In this document: one piece after another, positions 40,432 through 41,808 of the stretch
Layout of the letters: each line of letters starts with the position of its first letter
Numbering within the stretch: position 1 is the stretch's first letter
Source of the DNA: Planctomycetota bacterium
GTDB taxonomy: Bacteria; Planctomycetota; Planctomycetia; JALXBF01
NCBI GenBank assembly: GCA_026991575.1
Contig: JALXBF010000131.1
Span: 1-47,465 of the forward strand
Direction: 5' to 3'
Length of the DNA stretch: 47,465 nt
Made by a program: the position numbers and the translations under genes
Notes under the pieces: generated by a model
What the model was told of the DNA's origin: nothing
What the model saw: the letters and a program-made list of their open reading frames with translations, nothing else
The model's database searches: none

Positions 40432-41808
40432 ATGAATCGGGAGACCGGCATGATCACCGACGTTCGCAGCCTGGTGCTGGAAAGCGAAGAGTTTGGCCCC
40501 GAGCAGGTTGACATCATCCGTGAGCTGCTGGCCAATGACTTGTCGGCGGTGCGTGCCCTACGCGAAGCGTCTCAGATTCTCAAGGACAAGCTTAAGAGCG
40601 CCAGCGGCGCAGCCAAACAGGACATCAAGAAACGACTTGGTATCGTCGAGTACCTGCTCGGCCGAAGTGCCACCGCCCAGTTTTACCTCATTGACGTGGG
40701 AGACGACCCGTTTGCCCTGGAATACCTGGGCAAGGCCTACATGGCCCGAGAGCAGTACCATGAGGCCGCCGCGGCCTTTGAGGCCGCCGTGAAGGTGCTT
40801 GCCAAGTCGGCAGGCTCAAAGGCCGACCAACGCGAGCAAACCAAGTTGATGACGATGAAGCTCTACGCTGCCGGTGCCCACCGCCTGGCCGGTGACCGGG
40901 ACCAGGCATGGAAGCTGCTTAAGTCGGTGGAAAACGCAGCAGGGGAGCTGGCCGAGTACCACTACCAGAAAGGATGTCTGCTTGCAGATGAGGGTGATCG
41001 AATGGAGGCGCTCAAGGAGCTGGAGCATGCGCTGACGCTTGATCCGCATCACCCCGAAGCTCTCTTCCACGCCGCTTATATCCACGACCTCTACGGCAAC
41101 GACGAACTTGCCCAGGAGCTCTACGAGCGGTGCGTCTCGCGTGCGCCGGTTCACATGGGCGCGCTGATTAACCTGGGGATCCTCTATGAGGACAAAGGTG
41201 AGTACGCCCGGGCCGCCCGCTGTTTCCGCCGTGTGCTAAACATCTATCCGACCAATGGACGAGCTCGGCTCTTCTTCCGGGACGCCGTTGCGGCCGAATC
41301 GGCCGAGACCGAAGAAACTCCCGAGACGAAGCGTCGGCTGGACCGCACCCAGCAACTGCTCAATCGGCCAGTGCACGAACTGGAATTGTCCGCTCGAGCG
41401 CGGCACTGTCTGGAGGACCTGGGGGTTGAGACGATCGGGGACCTGGTCGCGCTCAGCGAGCAAGACCTCATGAAGGCGAAGAACTTCGGCGACACATCGC
41501 TGGCTGAGATCAAAGAGCAACTGCAGCGGCTGGGATTGTCGTTGGGCATGGCGCCGGCGCGGAAGGAGGTTCGACGGGAACAGGAGCCACAGATTGATCC
41601 GCAGCTTCTGAGCAAGCCGGTCAGTGAGCTGAACGTCTCTGGCCGCGTTCGCCGCTGCCTGGAGAAACTCAACATCGAGACCGTCGGCCAGCTGATCGAG
41701 TACACGCCACAGCAACTCCTGGCCGTCAAGAACTTCGGCACGACATCGCTGAGGGAACTCCAGGAAGAGTTGGCCCGATACGGGCTCGCATTGAAAACGG
41801 GCAAGTGA
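40432..41808 (+). CDS. TPR protein with two RNA-polymerase-alpha-CTD-like modules
   Basis: 458 residues from ATG 40432 (GGAG seven bases upstream). The first 290 residues hold tetratricopeptide repeats, for example [40 protein letters not shown] and [20 protein letters not shown]. Two alpha-CTD modules follow (about 309-372 and 391-455), each with the fold signature: [20 protein letters not shown] and [30 protein letters not shown] and [11 protein letters not shown]. At the E. coli alpha DNA-contact positions, Arg265 is kept (Arg322, Arg405), Cys269, Gly296, Ser299 and Glu302 are kept, but Asn268 is His or Arg and Lys298 is Thr. The role is unknown. The next gene, tgt, starts inside the stop codon. 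Confidence 0.92.

Follow-up and report, generated by a model that had tools for sequence, protein, structure and literature searches.

The stretch of DNA analysed here, which we call the window, comprises 47,465 nucleotides from a Planctomycetota bacterium. On its forward strand, an open reading frame at 40432–41808 (ATG at 40432, TGA at 41806–41808) encodes a protein of 458 amino acids, referred to below as the TPR–alphaCTD protein. A candidate sigma70-like promoter on the same strand (TTGCGC-N17-TATAAT, 40364–40392) has an exact TATAAT at 40387–40392 and TTGCGC 17 bp 5′ of it, and matches the consensus at 9 of 12 positions. An earlier note on this DNA had called it the best promoter in the window; the perfect TATAAT and the 9/12 match stand, but the rank is only a tie, because two further sites in the window with an exact TATAAT score equally. 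A stricter consensus scanner reported no promoter between 38500 and 43900. The next gene is tgt, which encodes tRNA-guanine transglycosylase (41805–42914, forward strand; TIGR00430, 482 bits, and gene order in 121 loci). The overlap of the two genes claimed in the same note is likely but not certain: the TGA stop shares the letters GTGA with a GTG at 41805, but the start could also be another in-frame GTG, at 41814. Further downstream on the forward strand lie yajC (43095–43487; PF02699/TIGR00739 and synteny) and a fused secDF (43834–46674; family matches and synteny). Just 5′ of the TPR–alphaCTD gene and on the same strand, positions 38718–40181 encode a coiled-coil-like protein, for which no Pfam or NCBIfam family was found above cut-off.

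Pfam and AlphaFold superposition upheld the description of the product as a TPR protein with two alpha-CTD modules outside RpoA. In the Pfam search, PF03118 (RNA_pol_A_CTD) matched two stretches of the protein (E 7.6e-40; 134.9 bits, with 23.8 as the cut-off), and TPRs were found at about residues 90–280 (TPR_2, 68.6 bits, four stretches, above the curated cut-off). In the PF03118 search of the genome, the first module (CTD1) scored 80.1 bits and the second (CTD2) 63.4 bits, compared with 84.7 bits for the CTD of the same genome's RpoA. The AlphaFold (AF2) model, computed with 104 homologues as input, had a mean pLDDT of 93.5 and predicted an all-helical repeat scaffold (residues 11–293; 40462–41310), a helix at 297–310, CTD1 (residues 306–371; 41347–41544), a disordered linker (residues 372–389; 41545–41598) and CTD2 (residues 390–449; 41599–41778, with the PF03118 match at 41596–41775). 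The scaffold assignment draws on the Pfam TPRs, the model helices, solenoid matches and short homologues, with a conserved core at residues ~170–293, while the linker is variable, with poor column conservation and pLDDT below 50 at residues 378–384.

Modelled CTD1 superposed on the E. coli alphaCTD at 0.7 Å over 67 residues (Z 13.6), and CTD2 superposed on alphaCTD at 0.8 Å over 64 residues (Z 13.0) and at 1.2 Å over 71 residues (Z 13.4). The models also superposed on alphaCTDs that were solved on DNA, for example 1lb2, 3n97 and 9zum. Because a Foldseek search with the whole 458-residue model gave exclusively TPR solenoids among the matches listed, the CTD tandem was modelled separately (pLDDT 91.5), and Foldseek then retrieved solved alphaCTDs. 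As judged from these predicted structures, a chance resemblance of both modules to alphaCTD is excluded, and both are genuine RNA-polymerase alpha-CTD domains. The top Foldseek/VIA solenoid matches for residues 1–294 were the TPR scaffold proteins OGT, LGN, APC/C subunits and Tom70; this resemblance is that of a generic solenoid and implies no common partner or activity.

The TPR–alphaCTD protein resembles RpoA in the fold of its CTDs (0.7–1.2 Å), in Arg265 and the greater part of the DNA-contact set, and in the availability of two CTDs, per molecule here and per alpha dimer in RpoA. It differs in that the two CTDs stand in one chain, with TPRs attached and no alpha NTD, and the CTDs themselves have an extra basic residue at position 267, Lys or Arg at 268 in CTD2, and a clade of their own. 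The rpoA equivalog models matched only the CTDs, at 133–136 bits against cut-offs of 228–302 for the best two models. Since the NTD is absent and the scores are far below these cut-offs, the sequence indicates that the protein is not an RpoA; it belongs to the PF03118 domain family and to the TPR proteins. The same genome has a single normal rpoA, which includes a CTD, on another contig. An alphaCTD-like module is also shared with BREX PglW (NF033442), PRK07758 and a beta′ with a C-terminal CTD-like stretch (PRK14906), but these NCBIfam matches were far below cut-off and limited to the CTD region; for PglW, the score was 42 bits against a cut-off of 990, with the best stretch at residues 282–385. 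The AfsR/SARP regulators are comparable in general terms, in that AfsR of Streptomyces is reported to be a TPR-containing regulator of transcription (PMC10936776). AfsR activates transcription via its own SARP domain, whereas the TPR–alphaCTD protein carries alphaCTDs itself.

A whole-genome search found the TPR–alphaCTD protein in 277 of 294 Planctomycetota genomes at E < 1e-30, normally in single copy. This cut-off was applied to the 288 matches obtained at E ≤ 1e-10 because RpoA itself can match at about 1e-13 to 1e-20; many of the genomes that dropped out of the count are incomplete assemblies. When 99 genomes were scanned for PF03118, the usual number of domains was three, namely RpoA and the two in the TPR–alphaCTD protein. 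Extra PF03118 matches were sought in 115 Verrucomicrobiota, and nearly all of these genomes had RpoA alone. Among 39 further genomes, the Verrucomicrobiota likewise nearly always had the single domain of RpoA. A Brocadiaceae genome (Planctomycetota) met in this sampling had three. A few Verrucomicrobiota genomes showed one or more additional matches, mostly weak or fragmentary. Given 277 of 294 Planctomycetota against Verrucomicrobiota with nearly always RpoA only, the architecture is, as far as sequence searches go, a planctomycete trait among the groups sampled, of which Planctomycetota and Verrucomicrobiota were covered in number. Two observations concern other phyla: one Verrucomicrobiota contig (G394:C8:71434-72126) has an open frame of 1221 codons that encodes a tandem of three weak alphaCTD-like modules, and Chloroflexota genomes G324–G327 have, besides RpoA, a weak second alphaCTD-like module in short open frames (160–214 residues).

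We compared residues in E. coli alpha numbering among 121 CTD1, 119 CTD2 and 40 planctomycete RpoA sequences, one of the 40 being possibly a mis-assigned copy of the TPR–alphaCTD family, as seen in the tree. In the E. coli alphaCTD reference used for numbering, the determinant residues agreed with the expected letters. Arg265 was retained in both modules, as had been proposed, and corresponds to Arg322 in CTD1 (codon 41395–41397) and Arg405 in CTD2 (codon 41644–41646); mapped over about 120 homologues, the two are conserved at 100% and 99%, respectively. The DNA-contact set (R265, N268, C269, G296, K298, S299, E302) is found phylum-wide in CTD1 except for Lys298: N268 is present in 91%, C269 in 94%, G296 in 100%, S299 in 98% and E302 in 100%, with N294 in 99%, and position 298 is Thr in 96%. 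In CTD2, G296 (89%), S299 (87%) and E302 (99%) are kept and position 268 has changed from Asn to Lys or Arg in 79%. Position 267 is basic (R/K) in 99% of CTD1s and 87% of CTD2s, compared with mostly Ser or Ala in planctomycete RpoA. CTD1 also keeps the acidic positions 259 (D/E, 99%) and 261 (E, 88%), which in E. coli alpha are the contacts to sigma region 4.

The window copy has His268 and Thr298 in CTD1 and Arg268 and Thr298 in CTD2. The earlier note was therefore right that Asn268 and Lys298 are changed in this copy, but the possible alteration of UP-element binding that it drew from these changes did not hold up. Threonine at 298 occurs in the genome's own RpoA and in 90% of planctomycete RpoAs (n = 40), for which reason the change from Lys298 was discarded as a mark of altered DNA binding. 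Because Asn268 is kept in most CTD1s, the alignment makes His268 a departure local to the window lineage and, together with the normality of Thr298, leaves a CTD1 DNA-binding face that looks intact. In the Verrucomicrobiota set, the ten RpoA sequences keep Lys298, in contrast to the Thr of planctomycete RpoA (L274–L312).

Mean pairwise identity across the phylum was higher for CTD1 (0.59) than for the planctomycete RpoA CTD (0.47). The window CTD1 has a negative net charge (7 K+R, 11 D+E), and planctomycete RpoA CTDs are also negative on average. In a tree of about 61 positions (support 0.78–0.90), CTD1 and CTD2 formed separate clades that grouped together apart from RpoA, a topology that fits a single old duplication. 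The invariant columns of the whole-protein homologue alignment are Asn247, Arg322, Gly353, Leu357 and Glu359. The strongest recognisable constraint on the CTDs is, by this comparison, the alpha-type DNA face. Asn247 lies at TPR position 6, which, by analogy with known TPR structures, would be a usual site of peptide contact in the groove.

The protein varies in length at both ends. Some families keep only about 140 residues ahead of CTD1, which points to a minimal unit of about three TPRs, a cap helix and the CTDs. Seven short homologues (~300–312 residues; L056, L057, L058, L060, L061, L134 and L149) are without the N-terminal TPRs. CTD2 is missing in 2 of 121 loci, so not every homologue needs both modules. 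Homologues ending after CTD1 are L138, L146 (family f45) and G088, and loss of CTD2 is apparent in one subgroup.

To describe the gene neighbourhood, we annotated 121 loci with HMMs built for this analysis. Family support for tgt, yajC and secDF came from matches in the window, and ruvA and ruvB were supported by TIGR00084 and TIGR00635; ruvC, queH and spoIID were identified from their sequences and cluster context only. The comparison suggests an ancestral series with the TPR–alphaCTD gene in first place, gene–(ruvC)–ruvA–ruvB–queH–spoIID–tgt–yajC–secDF, which is complete or nearly complete in families f45, f48, f76 and f82. Within 450 bp downstream, the nearest cluster gene on the same strand was ruvA in 56 loci, spoIID in 12, tgt in 5, queH in 5 and ruvC in 3, with none in 40. 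The loci with ruvA next span 35 family-level groups, and the gap is often 5–60 bp. By whole-genome search coordinates, the gene and ruvA were adjacent in 56 of the 92 genomes in which both had been placed, and ruvA and ruvB in 22 of 118; the pair with ruvA occurred without ruvB in 45 genomes, and ruvA–ruvB without the gene in 9. These figures are descriptive, since related genomes are non-independent, the sign test ignores shared ancestry and some target coordinates are CTD positions only. The gene is linked to ruvA more closely than ruvA is to its own motor subunit, which was unexpected. That ruvA and ruvB usually lie apart in Planctomycetota is itself unlike the ruvAB operon of many bacteria.

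In the window genome, ruvA is on another contig and the link has been lost, as it has in several families of the same class. Only five of the 121 loci have tgt as the next gene, and these belong without exception to the class of the window (families f1, f3 and f4); ruvA predominates as neighbour. The connection with tRNA modification that had been read from the overlap thus found no support. Gene order indicates that tgt, yajC and secDF are here a local remnant of the ancestral cluster, and tgt is next door as what stays after loss of the middle genes in this class. We also considered the gene as a replacement for yebC upstream of ruvC and rejected this, because YebC was found elsewhere in 55 of 59 genomes.

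Our preferred reading, which we hold with belief and doubt in equal parts, is that the TPR–alphaCTD protein is a core, phylum-specific DNA-binding adaptor of Planctomycetota. That it binds DNA is probable; that it contacts the transcription apparatus is possible, and we hold this part with somewhat more doubt than belief. The two alphaCTDs on their flexible linker would bind the DNA minor groove, probably where it is AT-rich, through the face used by RNA polymerase alpha. Each CTD might bind weakly and both together well, so resembling the CTD pair of an alpha dimer, yet outside the polymerase core. Because the acidic positions 259 and 261 are kept, CTD1 may also touch sigma region 4. Between them, the last three TPRs and the capping helix would make up a conserved groove in which a protein partner sits and is thereby placed on DNA. 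The 265 face of CTD1 is conserved as a whole, which fits such an alpha-like role. Several points count against the adaptor: the gene context points to ruvA and not to transcription genes, the window CTD1 has a net negative charge, TPR proteins are versatile, and CTD2 is absent from two loci.

The linkage to ruvA raises a different reading, in which the protein is a recombination or repair factor, its CTDs serving as helix-hairpin-helix DNA-binding modules and its TPRs recruiting RuvA or RuvAB to load or regulate Holliday-junction processing. The frequency of ruvA as next gene, its short gaps and its spread over 35 family-level groups argue for it, as does adjacency exceeding that of ruvA and ruvB. 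This evidence is one of gene linkage only, and the order ruvCAB–tgt–yajC–secDF is an old bacterial cluster, so the linkage may reflect inertia or shared expression. Moreover, the link is lost in the window and several families of its class, and the CTDs are RpoA-like, with residues towards sigma that would be superfluous in a recombination factor; we consider this reading unlikely. A combination of the two, in which a phylum-defining, alpha-like adaptor links either the transcription machinery or AT-rich promoter DNA with RuvA Holliday-junction processing, with the alphaCTDs on DNA or sigma, the TPR groove recruiting RuvA and expression tied by the operon, seems to us quite unlikely.

The alpha-type face of CTD1 and its acidic 259 and 261 positions would also suit a decoy, the strong form of the idea in the earlier note, that vies with the CTD of polymerase alpha for binding to UP elements, activators or sigma, with global repression or retuning of transcription as the result. 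Such a role is very unlikely, given that high abundance is not in evidence, the protein has no polymerase-binding NTD, and the conserved TPR groove suggests a bound partner instead of mere competition. Loss of Asn268 from both modules in the window lineage and the net acidic CTD1 could instead mean that the modules are HhH-like protein–protein domains that no longer bind DNA; we give this just as little credence, as Arg265, Gly296 and Glu302 of CTD1 are invariant phylum-wide and Ser299 is nearly so, which is hard to explain without DNA binding. A partnership with Tgt in tRNA modification or translation, suggested by the GTGA overlap in the window and by tgt following the gene in the three families named above, is extremely unlikely, because elsewhere ruvC, ruvA, ruvB, queH or spoIID intervene or tgt is at another place, and the two genes adjoin in so few loci.

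Full-text literature searches found no characterised homologue, in agreement with the earlier note, and nothing relevant on the TPR–alphaCTD protein or on a partner of RuvA in planctomycetes, which is no proof of absence. The domain architecture is visible to Pfam, and annotation pipelines will have noted the domains. Planctopirus limnophila is a planctomycete grown in the laboratory for which genetic tools exist, and a transposon screen of it is reported to have listed 739 essential genes and 108 essential phylum-specific proteins of unknown function (PMC10632474). The role of the TPR–alphaCTD protein is therefore directly testable. In Planctomycetota the protein has the spread of a housekeeping gene; it was met only there among the groups sampled, and the face by which the polymerase alpha subunit contacts DNA is strongly constrained in it. 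A core protein that binds DNA and has no counterpart in other bacteria would bear on planctomycete transcription or recombination around an unusual nucleoid.
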